Shown piece after piece: positions 166 to 15,043 of a stretch of DNA of 23,825 nucleotides. A program made the translations under genes and the position numbers. How positions within the stretch are numbered: position 1 is the stretch's first letter; each line of letters starts with the position of its first letter. Source of the stretch: a virus; IMG/VR virus record IMGVR_UViG_3300037011_000309, positions 1 to 23,825 of that record; one strand, written 5' to 3'. The notes under the pieces were generated by a model. It was not told the origin of the DNA. It saw nothing but the letters and a program-made list of their open reading frames with translations, and made no database searches.

Positions 166-205
166 CCGATAAAAAGATTTATTAACCAATCAAGGATTGA
201 CCCCG

Positions 206-1039
206 ATGGCTTTTCTTGGTACAATAATTAAGACATTGGATATTAGAGACATTAAAGAAGAGGTTATTTATCCGGGCTTAACGTCGTTTTCGGATTTATT
301 TGCTTTACAGAAGATCCTTATTAATCATTATGTAAAGATAGAGGGTTTACCACAATATCCCATTGATATCCATACTAAGCAAAGCCAGAATATTATAAAA
401 GATTTTTCTGCCCGTATCATAGAAGAATTTGGAGAGGGATTTGAATCTTACGAGATAATGATGGATATGTTCCATCATGGAGAAGATGAGTCAGATATGA
501 TACCACACCTTCAGAATTTTAATGAAGAAGTCGCTGATGCCATTCATTTCTGGTTAGAGCTTATGATATTTTCTGGTTACGAAGTATCTCACCTTAAAAA
601 ATGGATGGAAACAGATTGGGAAGTATCCTTTAGTAATCCTGACTTACTTTCAGAATACATGAAATTAGGTGGATATTTAGTGGAAACTCATTTACCTTTA
701 GTTAAAATCCCCAAAAGGATGGTAATAAGGGATTCAGATCTTAGGGATGAATTTTTAAGAGGGGGTCGTGCTTTAAGTAAAGTATTACGTCAACAAATGA
801 AAGTTTACCTTTGGGATATAACCTATTGGCTTCAATTAGCTAGGAATACTTTAAAAAATAAACCCTGGAAACAAAGCCACATGTTAACTGATCTAGGTCA
901 ATATGAAAATGCTCTTAAAAAATGTGCTTATTCTATGTTTACCTTTCTTGCTTTTTCAGGTTTTACTAAGGAATCACTATTTCATATTTACTATAAAAAG
1001 AATAAGGTTAACCAATTCAGAATTAAATCTAAGTATTAA
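206..1039 (+). CDS. dUTPase/dCTPase-like all-alpha NTP pyrophosphatase
   Basis: This looks like a dimeric-type (dUTPase_2/MazG-like) nucleotide pyrophosphatase, which hydrolyses dUTP or dCTP to the monophosphate and pyrophosphate. The Mg-binding pattern is visible: helix EEFGEGFE at residues 73-80 and EEVAD at 107-111 (ExxE, later ExxD). The C-terminus ends in KKNKVNQFRIKSKY, matching the KN..N..R...GY tail of this family. About 277 residues is a normal length. The start is placed at ATG 206; a TTG at 197 would add three residues. The next gene begins 1 bp after the stop. Followed by two thymidylate-synthase-fold genes, it would supply dUMP or dCMP to them, as T4 gp56 does for gp42. The substrate (dUTP, dCTP or both) cannot be read from the sequence. 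Confidence 0.65.
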   Translation: MAFLGTIIKTLDIRDIKEEVIYPGLTSFSDLFALQKILINHYVKIEGLPQYPIDIHTKQSQNIIKDFSARIIEEFGEGFESYEIMMDMFHHGEDESDMIPHLQNFNEEVADAIHFWLELMIFSGYEVSHLKKWMETDWEVSFSNPDLLSEYMKLGGYLVETHLPLVKIPKRMVIRDSDLRDEFLRGGRALSKVLRQQMKVYLWDITYWLQLARNTLKNKPWKQSHMLTDLGQYENALKKCAYSMFTFLAFSGFTKESLFHIYYKKNKVNQFRIKSKY

Positions 1040-1040
1040 T

Positions 1041-1322
1041 ATGGGAACACAAACTGTAACACAAGAGACAAGAGCTCAACGATTATTATTAGCCGATAGA
1101 TTAAGGGGATTATCGGGTAGTATAAGAGCATCTAGGTTAGAATATAATCGTATATATGGGCCTGGAGTAACCGTTATACCAAGGGGTAACATAGTAAAAA
1201 TCCTACATACAAAAATGAATTATCGTTCACCTGAAAACCCAAGTGGCGATATTTGGTGTAGAGTAAAAGACTTATGGGGTGATTTAGAAATGTGGGTACC
1301 ATCTACATTTATCGTTGTATAA
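1041..1322 (+). CDS. Small SH3-like hypothetical protein
   Basis: This is a 93-residue protein starting at ATG 1041, directly after the previous stop. A longer reading from 903 would overlap the dUTPase-like gene by 137 nt and is not credible. The N-terminal 40 residues are charged and helical (MGTQTVTQETRAQRLLLADR). The rest has the look of a bacterial SH3-type beta barrel: GVTVIPRGNIVKILH, then WCRVKDLWGDLEMWVPS, with the G..V.V...W.V....WV spacing. No catalytic motif is visible. It lies 2 bp before the thymidylate-synthase-like gene at 1325 and is probably cotranscribed. It could be a protein- or nucleic-acid-binding accessory of the nucleotide module; the SH3 assignment is pattern recognition only. 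Confidence 0.75.
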   Translation: MGTQTVTQETRAQRLLLADRLRGLSGSIRASRLEYNRIYGPGVTVIPRGNIVKILHTKMNYRSPENPSGDIWCRVKDLWGDLEMWVPSTFIVV

Positions 1323-1324
1323 AA

Positions 1325-2149
1325 ATGATAATTAGCAAACATAGCACAAGTCAGGAAGCTTGGGAATGGATAAATGAATTTTTAGCTATGAAAGAACCAG
1401 AAGTGGTAGCTAATGGTGGAGTTCGTAGTGGTCCACAGATGATATCTTATGACCATTTTATGGAAATAAATAAGGCTTGGGTAGACCCAGAATTTGATTT
1501 TGGGAAAATGTTTGGATACCGTATTCAAAAATGGTCTAAATTAATTTCTAATTACATTGATTTCGATTTTCTTGATATTGCCAGGAGCCAAGTATTGGAA
1601 AGAGAAAATAAAAGGGCTCAACACTATACTGTAGTTTATAAATTTTCTAATACACAAACATCTGGTCATGCCTGTTTAATATCTCTGGTATTTCAAAGAA
1701 GGATTACTCAAGATAATCCTATAGTCGTTATGAATATAAGATCATCAGAGGTAACTAAAAGGCTATTAATGGATTTTCTTTTGGTGGAAAGAATTATCGA
1801 GTATGTGTATGGTCCTAAACATGGTGCAAGTATTAAGGTTTATTGTGCTAATGTATATTTATCGGGTGAAGCCTTTACTATGTATAATACTCTTAAACCT
1901 TTGAGGAACTTATTAGCAGGTAATGATACCCCAATGGCAGGTAGGATATTGGGTTTATTAGATAAATTTGAAAAACCAGAGTCTTTGAATATAAAGTACA
2001 GGGTACATTTAAGAGCAGTGAAAAGATTACATAATATAGATGTTAAATCATTATTTGCTAAAAACCTTAAATTATTCCCAGACCAAATAACTAATTCTGA
2101 TGAAAAGAAACCTAAGAAATTATTAAAGAAAAATACTATTAATAAATAA
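1325..2149 (+). CDS. Divergent thymidylate-synthase-fold protein
   Basis: The 274-residue product resembles a thymidylate synthase/dCMP hydroxymethylase with weak conservation. FGYRIQKW near residue 60 corresponds to the family's YG.RLR..W. HACLISLVFQRR around 115-126 places Cys117 where the nucleophile loop lies. IRSSEV at 138-143 matches the phosphate-binding RS.D/E loop, with Asp150 eleven residues after Arg139, where dUMP-specific enzymes have Asn. The usual HIY segment is replaced by CANVYLSGEAF. The C-terminal 60 residues are Lys-rich and unrelated to the core. Start at ATG 1325, 2 bp after the previous gene; a start at 1292 would overlap that gene. A canonical relative lies 300 bp downstream, so this could be an inactive partner, a subunit of a heterodimer, or an enzyme with a different pyrimidine substrate. 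Confidence 0.55.
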   Translation: MIISKHSTSQEAWEWINEFLAMKEPEVVANGGVRSGPQMISYDHFMEINKAWVDPEFDFGKMFGYRIQKWSKLISNYIDFDFLDIARSQVLERENKRAQHYTVVYKFSNTQTSGHACLISLVFQRRITQDNPIVVMNIRSSEVTKRLLMDFLLVERIIEYVYGPKHGASIKVYCANVYLSGEAFTMYNTLKPLRNLLAGNDTPMAGRILGLLDKFEKPESLNIKYRVHLRAVKRLHNIDVKSLFAKNLKLFPDQITNSDEKKPKKLLKKNTINK

Positions 2150-2153
2150 AACA

Positions 2154-2459
2154 ATGAATAAAATTTATTTTCAACCTGCCGAACAAAGAGTATTAGTTTT
2201 ACCTGATGATCCTGATCAAAAGATAGGTAATATATACATACCTACTAATATACAACAAGATAAACCAAGATTCGGCTATGTTATATCAATAGGAAGTGGT
2301 AGTATAGAAATACCTATGAGATATTATATGGGCCAAAGGGTTATGTTCAGTCACTTCTCTGGAGTAGAAGTAGAATTAAACATAGATGACAAGGATAGGA
2401 AATACCTTGTCATGAATCAATTGGATATAATGGGTGTAATAATAGAGGATAAGGTATGA
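2154..2459 (+). CDS. GroES-like co-chaperonin
   Basis: This 101-residue protein has the GroES/T4 gp31 layout: a first strand QRVLVLPDDPDQ, a glycine-led mobile-loop segment GNIYIPTNIQQDKPRFG, GYVISIGSG, then MGQRVMFSHFSGVEV and a closing YLVMNQLDIMGVI that matches the YL.M...DI.G.I ending of the family. The loop contains an IYIP hydrophobic patch where GroES contacts the GroEL apical domain. It would cap the host GroEL ring and help phage proteins to fold. It sits 4 bp after one thymidylate-synthase-like gene and overlaps the next by 4 bp (ATGA), so the three are cotranscribed and probably coupled. The mobile loop looks shorter than in host GroES. Confidence 0.8.
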   Translation: MNKIYFQPAEQRVLVLPDDPDQKIGNIYIPTNIQQDKPRFGYVISIGSGSIEIPMRYYMGQRVMFSHFSGVEVELNIDDKDRKYLVMNQLDIMGVIIEDKV

Positions 2460-3172
2460 GAGTATATGCAAATTGTTATGAGTTAATGTCTGAAATATTC
2501 AGGGAAGTATGGGAGATGGGACAAATTTGTCACCCATTTTCAATGCAGAATAAGATCGTAGTAGATGACCCAGATTATGAGACTAAGGAAATAACTAATT
2601 ATAGTTATTGTCTCACTAATTTATTTAAAATAGATTATCTATTTTTTGCAGACCCAACTTCTATGATATGGGCAGAAGAAGAATTTAAAGAAAGAGTCAC
2701 TCCTATTCGTATTAATCCGGGAAAAGCTTGGTTTATAAGGGATTATGTTTGGAAACAATTTCTTAATGAGCAGGGAAAATTTGATTACACATATAATGAA
2801 AGAATGAGAAGTCAATTACACTTCATTATAGATGAATTAATAGATCACCCAGATACTCGTCAGGCAATCATCAGTATATGGGATCCACTTATAGATACTA
2901 AAAGGTTGGGTGGAAGTAAAAGAATACCATGTTCTTTAAATTACCAGTTATTATACAGAAATGGTAGGTTACACATAATATATAATCAGAGAAGTGCTGA
3001 TGTTGTAACTCATTTTGGGAATGATGTATTTCTTGCTTGGAAATTAATGGAATACATAGCGGAAAAAACCCAGTATAAAAAGGGATATTTATTTCATAAT
3101 ATAGGCTCATTACATACTTATAAAAAAGATTGGCCAAAACTAAAGCAATGTATTGATGATATCAAAATATAG
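2456..3172 (+). CDS. Thymidylate synthase / dCMP hydroxymethylase family protein
   Basis: This enzyme class transfers a one-carbon unit from methylene-tetrahydrofolate to C5 of dUMP or dCMP. Family motifs are clear: YTYNERMR..L near 110, TRQAIISIWDP near 134-144, the nucleophile loop IPCSLNYQ with Cys159, QRSADV starting at Gln178, and GSLHTYKKD near the C-terminus (HTY for HIY). In an ungapped alignment the residue eleven after Arg179 is Asp190, preceded by Asn189. In thymidylate synthase this position is the dUMP-reading Asn; in T4 dCMP hydroxymethylase it is Asp. A one-residue gap would instead align Asn189, so substrate is open between dUMP and dCMP. At 238 residues it is slightly short. 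Start ATG 2456 overlaps the GroES-like gene by 4 bp; the 3' end overlaps the polymerase by 17 bp. Confidence 0.85.
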   Translation: MRVYANCYELMSEIFREVWEMGQICHPFSMQNKIVVDDPDYETKEITNYSYCLTNLFKIDYLFFADPTSMIWAEEEFKERVTPIRINPGKAWFIRDYVWKQFLNEQGKFDYTYNERMRSQLHFIIDELIDHPDTRQAIISIWDPLIDTKRLGGSKRIPCSLNYQLLYRNGRLHIIYNQRSADVVTHFGNDVFLAWKLMEYIAEKTQYKKGYLFHNIGSLHTYKKDWPKLKQCIDDIKI

Positions 3173-5279
3173 ATATCACATAGTTCAAGATATAGGGGAG
3201 CTACACCAGTTAATAAGGTATTGTAAACAAACTGGTTATTGCTCCTCAGATTTTGAATCTACTGGTACTAGTGCCATGTATCCGGGTTCTAAACCTACTA
3301 TACTTGGGGTATCTTTCCAGCCGGGGAGTGCGTGGATAATTCCATTAGCCCACAAGGAAAGTATATTCCAAGATAATTGGGTTAGAGTATTACAATTATT
3401 TGGTAGAGAAATAATAGAAAACCCAATTATTGTTAAAATAGGTCAGAACATTAAATATGAAATGAATTGGTGGAGAAAATATGGTATCATCATGAGGGGT
3501 AGAGTATTTGATACTATGCTTGCTAAATACATTTTGGATGAGGAAAGACCACATGACTTAAAGAGTATGGTAGAAAGATTTATACCAGAACATGCAGGTT
3601 ATGATTTGCCTGGTCAACCTAGTGATAAAGCTACTCCAGAACAAATGATTATGTTTTGGAGTAATGTTCCATTAGAAACCCTTTCAAAGTACTGTGCTTT
3701 GGATGCAGACTTAACATTTAGATTATGGATATTTTTTGAACAAAGGTTAATAGACAATGGGTTTTATCCTTTGTTTAGGAATATGATGATGATGGCATCT
3801 AGGGTATTAAGTGAAGCAGAATATGAGGGAATGGAAGTTGACATGGGGTATGTTAAATCTTTAATAGACATTTATCAACAAAGAATTTCTGATTGTGATA
3901 AAGCTTTAAGAAATAACCCATTAATCCTTAAATATGAAAAGGAAAGGTTACGTGTAGTAAAACAAGATATATTATCGGAATATGCTGTAACCGGTAATAG
4001 AAAAAAAGCTTCTGTACTATTGGCAGGTGGTTATAATACTAAAAAAGAAAAGGAATTACTTGCGTCTATTAATTTTGGTAGTCCTAAACAAATGATAGAG
4101 TTATTATTTGATAATGAATATGGATTTAGATTTGATATAGTAAAATTTACTACAGATAAAAAAACTAAGAAACCAACTAAAACTCCATCTACAGATGAAG
4201 ATACATTAACAGAATTACTTATTCAGGATGATACTGGTTTTATAAAAAGCCTTTTGGAATACAGAGAATTAACTAAACTTTACTCAACGTACATTGATGG
4301 GATATGGAAACGTACACATTCTGATAATCGTGTTCATGGATCCTTTCTGTTACATGGAACAGTTACTGGTAGATTATCATCAAGAAATCCTAACCTACAA
4401 AATATACCCAGAGATACCACAAGTAGCGACATCAAAAAAATGTTCATTGCTCCTAAGGGTTGGTTAATTTTGCAATTAGATTATTCTCAGGCAGAATTAA
4501 GGGTACTAGCAACATCTGCTAAGGAAGAAACTATGATTAAATGGTTTAAAGATGGTAAAGATATACATACGGCATCATGTGCTTTGAAATGGGGAGTAGA
4601 GTATGATTTTATATTAGGTATATTAAAGGATGATAATAACCCAGATTTTAAATTATGGAAAGCCAGAAGGAAGCAAGCAAAAACAATTAACTTTGGAATT
4701 GTTTATGGGCAAACTGCTATTAAATTAGCAGAAAATCTTGCAAAGGAGGGAGAGAAAGTTACGATTAATGAAGCTCAAGAATTTCTCGATGATTTCAATA
4801 GGCAATTTCCTAAAATCAGGAGATTTATTGATAGACAAAAAAAGTTTGCTGCCCAGAATGGGTATGTGTATAATTTATTTGGGCGCAAGCGGAGATTGTT
4901 AAATATAAATTCAGACAATTGGGGTAAAAAATCAGAAGCTGAAAGACAATCTGTTAATGCCCCAATACAAGGAGCAGCTTCTGACTTTGCTTTATTCAGT
5001 TCCATTTTAATAAGAGAATCTAAGAAGAAAGGAATAATTCCTTCAGAATTAATACAAGTAGGGACAGTTCATGATTCATTAATATTTTATTTTAACCCAC
5101 TTATCATACATTCAGCAATACCCGTACTTTACGAGATATGTAGAAACCCAGAAACTAAGACTTGGTTTAATTTTGAAATACAAGATATTGAGATGAAAGT
5201 AGATTTCGAAATAGGTAAAAATTGGGGAGAATTACATGCCTATGATAAGACAGTGGATTATAGTACATGGGTTGCTTAA
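3156..5279 (+). CDS. polA: Family A DNA polymerase with 3'-5' exonuclease domain
   Basis: This is the replicative or repair DNA polymerase of the phage, 707 residues. The exonuclease domain occupies roughly residues 1-200: DFE with Asp32 and Glu34, GQNIKYE with Asn98 and Glu102 (Asp in E. coli Pol I), and YCALDADLTFRL with Tyr179 and Asp183. The polymerase domain follows: TGRLSSRNPNLQNIP, motif A LQLDYSQAELR with Asp442, motif B RKQAKTINFGIVYG with Lys509 and Phe513, and motif C VHDS with Asp640. Phe513 predicts discrimination against dideoxynucleotides. Motif C has Ser641 where Pol I has Glu; the metal-binding Asp is kept. No 5' nuclease domain is fused; that activity is encoded at 7665. The ATG at 3156 is preferred to TTG 3153. 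Confidence 0.95.
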   Translation: MISKYRYHIVQDIGELHQLIRYCKQTGYCSSDFESTGTSAMYPGSKPTILGVSFQPGSAWIIPLAHKESIFQDNWVRVLQLFGREIIENPIIVKIGQNIKYEMNWWRKYGIIMRGRVFDTMLAKYILDEERPHDLKSMVERFIPEHAGYDLPGQPSDKATPEQMIMFWSNVPLETLSKYCALDADLTFRLWIFFEQRLIDNGFYPLFRNMMMMASRVLSEAEYEGMEVDMGYVKSLIDIYQQRISDCDKALRNNPLILKYEKERLRVVKQDILSEYAVTGNRKKASVLLAGGYNTKKEKELLASINFGSPKQMIELLFDNEYGFRFDIVKFTTDKKTKKPTKTPSTDEDTLTELLIQDDTGFIKSLLEYRELTKLYSTYIDGIWKRTHSDNRVHGSFLLHGTVTGRLSSRNPNLQNIPRDTTSSDIKKMFIAPKGWLILQLDYSQAELRVLATSAKEETMIKWFKDGKDIHTASCALKWGVEYDFILGILKDDNNPDFKLWKARRKQAKTINFGIVYGQTAIKLAENLAKEGEKVTINEAQEFLDDFNRQFPKIRRFIDRQKKFAAQNGYVYNLFGRKRRLLNINSDNWGKKSEAERQSVNAPIQGAASDFALFSSILIRESKKKGIIPSELIQVGTVHDSLIFYFNPLIIHSAIPVLYEICRNPETKTWFNFEIQDIEMKVDFEIGKNWGELHAYDKTVDYSTWVA

Positions 5280-7675: not shown

Positions 7676-8567
7676 ATTAGTCATACTTGATGGGAGTCAT
7701 TTAGCTTATAGGGCTTACCATAAGTTCCCTAACCTTCATACTTTGGATGGGGTAAATACTTCTGTAGTCTATGGAATACCCTATATTGTAGAAAGTTTGA
7801 TAAGGAAGTTTATCCCTGATAAAGCCATAATTACCTTGGATGGTGGACGGAGCCCCTTTAGGATGGGGCTCTTACCATCTTATAAACAACGGGATCAGAA
7901 ATTAGGTTTCGACAAGGAAGATTTTTATCGTCAGAAAGACGATGCCATGAAGTTTATGAATGCTCTGGGTATATCTATATCGGGTAAAAAAGGTTTTGAA
8001 GCTGATGATTTAATTGCTATGATTTCCAGAAGATATGCTATTAGGGGATGGGATGTTATTATTATTTCTGGTGATAAGGATTTTAACCAGTTGATAGATG
8101 ATAATATCTTAGTTTATAATACTGGTAAGAATGTATTAATGGATCAATTTAATTTGATAAAATATACCGGGTATGATCCAGATCAATGTGTAGATTACCT
8201 ATGTTTAACAGGAGATCATTCGGATAATATACCGGGGTATCCGGGTATTGGGGAAATAAGGGGGGTTAAATTTTTACAGGAATTTGGCAGTGTAAATAGA
8301 TTTTTGGGGAGTGATAATAAATTTGGTAAGGTAGATAAACAAAAACTAAAAGAAATCTATAAATTTAACCGCCAAATCATAGACCTTAAATTTTTCTATA
8401 GGAAATTTTTAATCAAAGAAAAGATGCCTATAGAACATGGGATTTTTAATGATGAGAAATTAAAAAAGCTTTGCAGACAATTTGAAACAAATTCATTTTT
8501 AAAACCACAATTCATTAATACTTATAAAACACTTTATGAAAAGACAAATCTTTATCACGGGAGCTAG
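7665..8567 (+). CDS. 5'-3' exonuclease / flap endonuclease
   Basis: This 300-residue protein belongs to the FEN/5' nuclease family (T5 D15, T4 RNase H, the N-terminal domain of Pol I), which removes RNA primers and 5' flaps. Metal-binding carboxylates are visible: LVILDGSHLAYRAY with Asp9, TLDGG, GFEADDLIAMI, and IISGDKDFNQLI. The helix-three-turn-helix signature LTGDHSDNIPGYPGIG follows. Because the DNA polymerase gene in this block has no 5' nuclease domain, this gene probably supplies that function in trans. ATG 7665 was chosen; GTG 7659 and ATG 7662 are in frame and would add one or two Met. It overlaps the recombinase by 11 bp and the next gene by 32 bp. Confidence 0.93.
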   Translation: MKNKLVILDGSHLAYRAYHKFPNLHTLDGVNTSVVYGIPYIVESLIRKFIPDKAIITLDGGRSPFRMGLLPSYKQRDQKLGFDKEDFYRQKDDAMKFMNALGISISGKKGFEADDLIAMISRRYAIRGWDVIIISGDKDFNQLIDDNILVYNTGKNVLMDQFNLIKYTGYDPDQCVDYLCLTGDHSDNIPGYPGIGEIRGVKFLQEFGSVNRFLGSDNKFGKVDKQKLKEIYKFNRQIIDLKFFYRKFLIKEKMPIEHGIFNDEKLKKLCRQFETNSFLKPQFINTYKTLYEKTNLYHGS

Positions 8568-9120
8568 TGGTGTAGGAAAAACTACGTTAGCAAAATATAT
8601 TTCTGAAAATTATGGTATTCCATATATATCTGCATCAGCTAAAGATGTATGGCCAAGATTTGGTTTTGAAAACCATGAGGATGCTTTAAGAAAATGCTTA
8701 GCTGATCCTATATTAGGATTTGAGTATCAAAAAGCTATTTGGGTTAAGAGGCATGATGCTCTGAGTTTAGCTGGGGATAACTTTATAACAGATAGAAGTC
8801 CTATTGATAACTATGCCTATTACATATTACAACAAGGGTATTATTCTGAAGAATATAATAAAGCTATGAATAGTTTATGTATAGCAGATTTTGCATTAGC
8901 TAATACAGTTATTTTTATAAGGCTAAGTAGTGATATTATATTAGAAAATGACGGTAAAAGAATATTAAATATAACTTATCAGAAATTAGTAGATAACACG
9001 ATAGGTTGGGTATTAAGTCACCAATTCGGGTTATTAACTTATAAGAAGGAATTGATTTTCATAAGTAATTGGGATTTTAATAACCGCATAGAAATAATAA
9101 ATAATCACCTATCTTTATGA
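8536..9120 (+). CDS. P-loop nucleotide-kinase-like protein
   Basis: The 194-residue product opens with a P-loop, FITGASGVGKTT (Walker A at residues 9-16), and has FITDRSPIDNYAYY at about 84-96, a DR.P.D pattern seen in thymidylate kinases and AAA_28/NadR-like kinases. A following VIFIRLSS strand fits the NMP-kinase fold. The likely role is phosphorylation of a nucleoside or deoxynucleoside monophosphate, for example to return a (modified) pyrimidine dNMP to the triphosphate pool. The substrate cannot be told from sequence. The gene overlaps the flap nuclease by 32 bp and the SbcD gene by 4 bp (ATGA), so it is in the same transcript. A non-kinase P-loop ATPase remains possible. Confidence 0.65.
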   Translation: MKRQIFITGASGVGKTTLAKYISENYGIPYISASAKDVWPRFGFENHEDALRKCLADPILGFEYQKAIWVKRHDALSLAGDNFITDRSPIDNYAYYILQQGYYSEEYNKAMNSLCIADFALANTVIFIRLSSDIILENDGKRILNITYQKLVDNTIGWVLSHQFGLLTYKKELIFISNWDFNNRIEIINNHLSL

Positions 9121-14599: not shown

Positions 14600-15043
14600 A
14601 TGCAAACATTCCTTCCATATGAAGAATTTCATACCTCTGCAATGGCACTCGATAAAAGGAGATGCTGGAAACAAGTAGTAGAAGCCCGTCAAATAGTTGA
14701 TGTACTTGAGGGTAAAAAAGTAAGTTGGGCTAATCATCCTGCAGTTAAAATGTGGATAGGTCATGAATTAGCGATGAGGCAATATTTCAATGAGTTCCTT
14801 GAGGTATGTAAGGAAAAACACGATATTAATACCAAGTACGAAAAGCTATATATAGGAATACCTAGATATCTTATTGATTACCCCTGGTGGCTTGGGGATA
14901 AAAACTTTCATAGGGCAATGAGGTCAAGGCTTATTAAAAAGGATAGGGATTTCTATTTACCGTTATTCCCCGAGGATGAGGGGTTTAATGATGGTAGATA
15001 TTTTTGGCCAGTTATGGAAACTAAAACATTCAGAATGATATGA
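14600..15043 (+). CDS. Pyrimidine-dimer DNA glycosylase family protein
   Basis: The 147-residue protein has the hallmarks of the Pyr_excise/MSMEG_6728 family, distant relatives of T4 endonuclease V (DenV), which excises UV-induced pyrimidine dimers. The start MQTFLPYEEFHTSAMALDKR, then KQVVEARQIVDVL, WANHPAVKMWIGHELAM, PWWLGDKNFHRAMRSRLIKKD and FYLPLF..D.....RYFWP give a near end-to-end family pattern. Glu28 in the KQ.VEA motif is the likely counterpart of the T4 catalytic Glu. The DenV N-terminal Thr2 is not conserved, as is usual in this branch. It is the first gene after its own promoter and overlaps the next by 4 bp. Confidence 0.85.
   Translation: MQTFLPYEEFHTSAMALDKRRCWKQVVEARQIVDVLEGKKVSWANHPAVKMWIGHELAMRQYFNEFLEVCKEKHDINTKYEKLYIGIPRYLIDYPWWLGDKNFHRAMRSRLIKKDRDFYLPLFPEDEGFNDGRYFWPVMETKTFRMI

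Follow-up and report, generated by a model that had tools for sequence, protein, structure and literature searches.

Two linked thymidylate-synthase-fold genes of a phage nucleotide cassette are likely of the cytidylate type

Do the two thymidylate synthase (TS)-fold genes that stand ahead of the replication genes in a phage genome supply ordinary thymidylate (dTMP), or do they make an altered cytosine for the phage DNA? The question is raised by the virus record IMGVR_UViG_3300037011_000309, a single IMG/VR record of 23.8 kb (hereafter the window), which is probably part of a larger phage genome and carries its main genes on the plus strand. An earlier note had described a T4 gp56-like gene at 206, TS-fold genes at 1325 and 2456 with GroES between them, and a kinase-like gene at 8536, all of which are present (Table 1), and had proposed that this cluster produces a modified cytosine. 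Our results make a reading of the cassette as deoxycytidylate (dCMP)-type likely, and we assign a probability of about 0.6 to the view that the region is a DNA-precursor cassette that makes 5-substituted dCMP for phage DNA. Direct support comes from the folds, the invariant residues, the conserved linkage, the separate dTMP synthases of relatives, and the co-variation of the TS homologue with the pyrophosphohydrolase.

The product of the gene at 2456 (the 2456 protein, or TS) matches PF00303 with an E-value of 2.7e-17 (63.2 bits; curated cut-off 24.3), and its AlphaFold2 model reaches a predicted local distance difference test (pLDDT) score of 95.8. The TS catalytic set was found at C159, R179, S180, D182, H220 and Y222 (corresponding to Cys146, Arg166-Ser167, Asp169, His207 and Tyr209), which bears out the main TS loops read in this gene before. 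The protein falls below the NCBIfam thymidylate synthase equivalog cut-offs, and in a Foldseek search its top PDB structures were the cytidine monophosphate (CMP) hydroxymethylase MilA and the phage HY126 dCMP hydroxylase AfhB; thymidylate synthases came after them, and T4 dCMP hydroxymethylase stood at rank 44.

Substrate preference was assessed in an alignment of 69 TS proteins, in which position 177 follows E. coli TS numbering. Asn occupies this position in five proteins (E. coli ThyA, Huwbert gp68, the ThyA of locus L080, and the SPO1 and M6 homologues), and Asp in all 64 others, the D-type members (D190 in the 2456 protein). The exchange Asn177Asp turns TS from deoxyuridylate (dUMP) to dCMP specificity, and Asp177 together with a changed residue 147 marks the TSs of cytosine-modified contigs (PMC8670742). 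Residue 147 is Ser or Thr in D-type TS. The features of dUMP-specific ThyA (Asn177, Leu143, His147 and the C-terminal tail) are replaced in the 2456 protein by Asp, Arg, Ser and a stretch of only 16 residues past Tyr222. D-type TS also forms a clade of its own (support 99/98), separate from ThyA, T4 gp42 and the enzymes of the dUMP type, although long branches join on the opposite side and call for caution. Taken together, we regard a cytidylate substrate as likely, and the gene called 'thymidylate synthase' in these phages is probably not a thymidylate synthase.

Another important question is whether the 1325 protein is a TS relative at all. It matches no Pfam family and no NCBIfam model, its sole library match being phrog_34294, whose function is unassigned there; therefore, the claim of a 'weaker but similar' TS pattern, drawn from sequence only, needed testing. 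Direct sequence searches against Pfam, NCBIfam and the PDB returned nothing useful and hhalign on small alignments gave weak results, and the relation became visible only by deep profiles and structure. AlphaFold2 on 58 homologues produced a model (pLDDT 90.2; predicted template modelling score, pTM, 0.87) with a TS fold rather than an unrelated one: in a Foldseek comparison with 350,542 PDB chains, the TS family filled all 50 best listed matches (best E 7.8e-6), led by the CMP/dCMP enzymes MilA, AfhB and T4 dCMP hydroxymethylase. The TM-scores of the best matches are modest (0.37-0.56), and the protein is therefore a diverged version of the fold. A hidden Markov model (HMM)-HMM alignment of the 1325 and 2456 superfamilies gave an E-value of 8.4e-6, whereas 11 unrelated families from these loci gave 0.12 or more and 60 column-shuffled decoys 0.039 or more. 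The alignment paired Cys117 with Cys159, Arg139 with Arg179, Asp150 with Asp190, and Tyr187 with Tyr222. The 1325 and 2456 proteins are distant homologues, which confirms the paralogy proposed earlier; the name 'pyrimidine hmase synthase', given to the companion by two depositors, agrees with the TS fold.

Within the 1325 family, the nucleophile Cys (C117), the phosphate-binding Arg (R139) and the Asp at the 177 position (D150) are invariant (78/78), and the folate-contact position is Glu or Asp in 74/78 members. No conserved counterpart of Glu58, of the trans phosphate Arg126/127 or of His207 was found in the alignments. In both proteins, Asp stands eleven residues after the RS-loop arginine as the earlier note had stated, and the aligned residue in the 2456 protein is Asp190, not Asn189. 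Because this Asp is conserved across very divergent phages, chance is excluded as the source of the pattern.

Which group might be added to the cytosine is less easily read from the residues. Three positions before the catalytic Cys (Cys-3), all 64 D-type members have Arg (R156 in the 2456 protein), while this residue is Leu in ThyA and Asp in SPO1, M6 and T4 gp42. Asp or Glu at Cys-3 has been linked to hydroxymethylation (PMC6400193), and the signature of T4-type hydroxymethylases therefore fails in D-type TS. Y113 of the 2456 protein fits Tyr96 of the T4 enzyme, and the Ser94 position corresponds to Tyr111 or Thr112, depending on the alignment. Judged by these sequence signatures, neither recognised product class, hydroxymethylase or ThyA, fits the 2456 protein, and Arg at Cys-3 lies outside both. 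The proposal of a modified cytosine is thus supported in part: the TS folds, the invariant dCMP-type Asp, the T4-like neighbours and the separate dTMP synthases speak for it, but no known product signature fits.

The similarity to AfhB suggests another chemistry, in which the TS would be a flavin-dependent dCMP 5-hydroxylase rather than a folate enzyme and the DNA would contain 5-hydroxycytosine. For the TS model, the AfhB structures 9iqu and 9iqc are the 4th and 5th structural matches (TM 0.76-0.80, normalised by target length), and they are also the best profile matches. Asp177 is common to both enzymes, and the TS lacks the C-terminal tail that serves hydride transfer. However, AfhB has Glu at Cys-3 where D-type TS has Arg, the folate-activating Glu is seemingly kept in the 2456 protein (E45), and AfhB is known here from PDB titles alone; the papers searched contained nothing on AfhB or HY126. 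We consider this chemistry quite improbable.

Could the cassette simply make dTMP? Its dUTPase would then yield dUMP, the TS would methylate it, a kinase would phosphorylate the product, and the 1325 protein would be a degenerate TS copy or a regulator. The gene set of phage Azira has been published as thymine synthesis and similar genes are annotated in Serbin, dCMP deaminase genes occur as neighbours, and the gene upstream belongs to the dUTPase_2 family. Nevertheless, Asp replaces Asn177 in 64/64 members, the TS has neither Leu143 nor His147 nor the C-terminal tail, and its clade lies away from ThyA. Moreover, 7/26 related records encode ThyX, and Huwbert and the contigs G013 and G017 contain a second ThyA with a full score (residues checked in Huwbert and in L080/G017); a canonical ThyA lies directly beside the Asp-type TS pair in L080 (3668-4639) and in Huwbert (gp68; L139 12367-13170). 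Since ten relatives thus carry a separate ThyX or ThyA, dTMP supply is an unlikely role of the cassette in those phages, and we consider it unlikely overall.

The pair is not confined to the window. The TS lies within 2.5 kb of the 1325-type (TS-like) gene in 55/57 distinct loci with enough sequence, and the TS-like gene is present at 55/55 TS loci, the two genes being adjacent and often overlapping. Phage records with the TS-like gene number 18 + 85 and those with the TS subfamily 103, with the same genus make-up (the two lists were matched by counts, not accession by accession). Their hosts by record are Gordonia, Mycobacterium, Streptomyces, Microbacterium, Curtobacterium, Serratia, Pseudomonas, Yersinia and Brevundimonas, and the phages include Muddy, GTE2, Serbin and PMBT14, in which the usual annotation is 'TS + hypothetical protein'. 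The order dUTPase_2, TS-like, TS, PolA, UvsY, single-stranded DNA-binding protein (SSB), RecA, exonuclease, kinase, SbcD, SbcC is mostly kept in very divergent contigs, with kinase and GroES as its mobile members. Some gut phages have two TS-like copies. In two loci (L069 and L077), the TS-like gene occurs without a D-type TS and retains Cys, Arg and Asp; there, a dCMP-deaminase-like gene instead of the TS precedes PolA (L077 10827-11279; L069 3910-4344).

This linkage raises the question of whether the two proteins form one enzyme. In an obligate heterodimer, the 1325 subunit would be non-catalytic or regulatory. The adjacent, often overlapping genes and the presence of the partner at every TS locus would suit such a complex, as would the fact that known TS enzymes are dimers with a shared active site and that the partner lacks both the folate-activating Glu and the Arg that binds phosphate in trans. 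However, L069 and L077 retain the partner, with its Cys, Arg and Asp, in the absence of the TS, and distance correlations between genes over 26-37 loci (modest samples, which do not exclude a complex) revealed no extra link between TS and TS-like once the replication backbone was allowed for (partial r -0.20 to -0.01). Instead, the TS co-varies beyond the backbone with the dUTPase_2 gene (partial r 0.62-0.75), although the TS-like gene sits between them. The suggestion that one paralogue serves as a heterodimer partner thus found no support, an obligate heterodimer is improbable, and the TS and the 1325 protein are unlikely to act as a dimer.

In the loci without a duplicate, the divergence of the TS-like gene follows that of PolA, SSB, RecA and FEN/exonuclease (r 0.87-0.92). 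This pattern, and the fact that Glu58, His207 and the trans Arg have lost their equivalents, would also be expected if the 1325 protein were a catalytically dead TS fold that serves the replisome by binding nucleotides or single-stranded nucleic acid. Such a role is rather unlikely: without cytidylate chemistry or binding, there is little reason for Cys, Arg and Asp to be invariant in 78/78 members and for the folate-contact residue to be acidic in 74/78. We lean slightly towards a catalytic rather than a regulatory 1325 protein.

Under the dCMP-type reading, the gp56-like enzyme would convert dCTP (and dUTP) to dCMP (and dUMP), the 2456 protein, with Cys159 as nucleophile and Asp190, would act at C5 of dCMP to give 5-substituted dCMP, and the neighbouring kinase and the host nucleoside-diphosphate kinase would produce the 5-substituted triphosphate for PolA. 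Hydroxymethyl, methyl and hydroxyl are the candidate groups. The 1325 protein, with the nucleophile, the phosphate Arg and the cytosine-reading Asp kept and without the folate-activating Glu and the trans phosphate Arg, would most likely handle the same or the modified cytidylate in its own right and not merely as a structural subunit. More tentatively, and with considerable doubt, the 1325 family (phrog_34294/13667 and relatives) could be an unrecognised class of TS-fold cytidylate enzymes with altered cofactor chemistry, acting in sequence with the Arg-type TS to give an undescribed cytosine derivative. This would apply to phages of Actinobacteria and Proteobacteria, and also to phage contigs that were binned with Spirochaetaceae and Dysosmobacter.

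Besides the missing hydroxymethylase signature, further observations weigh against an altered cytosine. In several cultured relatives, the TS has a dCMP deaminase gene as its neighbour, and the set has been read in papers as thymine synthesis; dCMP deaminase is, however, also present in T4 and in Thanatos, whose cytosine is substituted, and its position beside the pair therefore does not decide. The annotations of PMBT14 and of the Yersinia phage contain no glycosyltransferase. A C5-cytosine-methyltransferase-like protein is encoded in 14/16 IMG/VR relatives and in MT121964, and was not found in nine other relatives, mostly cultured. This protein would be without a substrate in a genome whose cytosines were all 5-substituted, which argues against complete 5-substitution in that branch. 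It is 331-359 amino acids (aa) long and has altered motifs; its sequence shows P-x-C in motif IV, ENL/ENV and NSQxxRxRL, and the place expected for motif X is taken by an invariant Lys. A carboxymethylcytosine route through it was considered and rejected, as no CmoA was found in 16 genomes. No measured base composition for Muddy, GTE2, Serbin or PMBT14 was found in the papers searched. On balance, we slightly favour the presence of a modified cytosine in the phage DNA.

The remaining genes of the cassette are in line with earlier descriptions. The 206 protein matches PF08761 with 29.1 bits (cut-off 22.9) and has a motif of the EExxE...ExxD type; T4 gp56 matches the same model with 25.4 bits, in agreement with the all-alpha gp56 type proposed before. 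A dUTPase_2 gene lies immediately upstream of the TS-like gene in 43/52 loci. GroES stands between the two TS genes in only 12/57 loci, downstream of PolA in 23, and was not found in 22. Because its position varies, a role as TS chaperone was rejected and no special link to TS folding is indicated; the idea that it assists the folding of phage replication proteins gained no support, and its place in the cassette is incidental. After PolA, the window continues with UvsY-like, gp32-like SSB, UvsX/RecA-like, 5'-3' exonuclease and kinase-like genes, followed by SbcD, SbcC, a resolvase and further genes. RecA is 736-829 aa long in some relatives (L030/L031 and L013) versus 393 aa in the window, and PolA 1092-1421 aa (L019, L020 and L063) versus 708 aa; inteins or added domains possibly account for the larger sizes.

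Table 1 Features of the window and of related loci
Feature	Position	Strand	Basis
All-alpha nucleoside triphosphate pyrophosphohydrolase, dUTPase_2 / T4 gp56 (dCTPase-dUTPase) type	197..1039 (alternative start 206)	+	PF08761, motif EEFGE-x30-EVAD
TS-like, TS-fold companion (1325 protein)	1325..2149	+	AlphaFold2 model, Foldseek, profile comparison, invariant C/R/D
Codons of Cys117, Arg139, Asp150 (1325 gene)	1673-1675, 1739-1741, 1772-1774	+	
GroES / Cpn10 co-chaperonin	2154..2459	+	PF00166 E 8.3e-15
TS homologue, probably cytidylate type (2456 protein)	2456..3172	+	PF00303, AlphaFold2 model, Foldseek
Codons of Arg156 (Cys-3), Cys159, Asp190 (Asn177 position) (2456 gene)	2921-2923, 2930-2932, 3023-3025	+	
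Family A DNA polymerase (PolA), constant downstream neighbour of the TS-like/TS pair	3153..5279	+	PF00476 E 1.6e-90
P-loop nucleoside-monophosphate-kinase-like gene	8536..9120	+	PHROG thymidylate kinase E 5.2e-13; AAA_28 and weak dNK matches
Pyrimidine dimer DNA glycosylase (T4 DenV type)	14600-15043		PF03013 E 8.7e-15
C5-cytosine-methyltransferase-like	Loci L157-L162, L164-L172; e.g. L164, contig G001 76397-77119		PF00145

These data give a new reading to a conserved nucleotide cassette that is now described as thymine synthesis. In ~100 phage records, among them those of Muddy and of relatives that were isolated on Mycobacteroides abscessus, a gene labelled 'hypothetical protein' seems to encode a TS-fold protein of the cytidylate type. 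The pair is present in more than 100 catalogued phage genomes, and the altered cytosine predicted in the cultured phages is therefore directly measurable; if real, it would bear on their restriction resistance.

Among known systems, T4 gp42 dCMP hydroxymethylase resembles the 2456 protein in its TS fold, Asp at 177 (T4 Asp179), Cys nucleophile and lack of a TS-type C-terminal tail, and the T4 pathway likewise uses a gp56-family pyrophosphohydrolase and a deoxynucleoside-monophosphate kinase. T4 gp42 differs in its Asp at Cys-3 and its separate clade, and the window differs from T4 in having a second TS-fold gene, with no glucosyltransferase seen. MilA, the best structural match of both models, is a cytidylate-specific TS fold, but it belongs to an antibiotic pathway, acts on CMP and shares low identity (11% to 19%). 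AfhB combines the TS fold with Asp at 177 and is the top profile match of the 2456 protein, from which it is set apart by Glu at Cys-3. ThyA shares the fold, the Cys, the RS loop and the His207/Tyr209 positions, whereas its Asn177, Leu143, His147 and C-terminal tail are not conserved in the 2456 protein. SPO1 gp29 and the M6 TS homologue, of the dUMP hydroxymethylase type, differ in their Asn at 177 and Asp at Cys-3, and are likewise phage TS-fold enzymes of DNA base modification.

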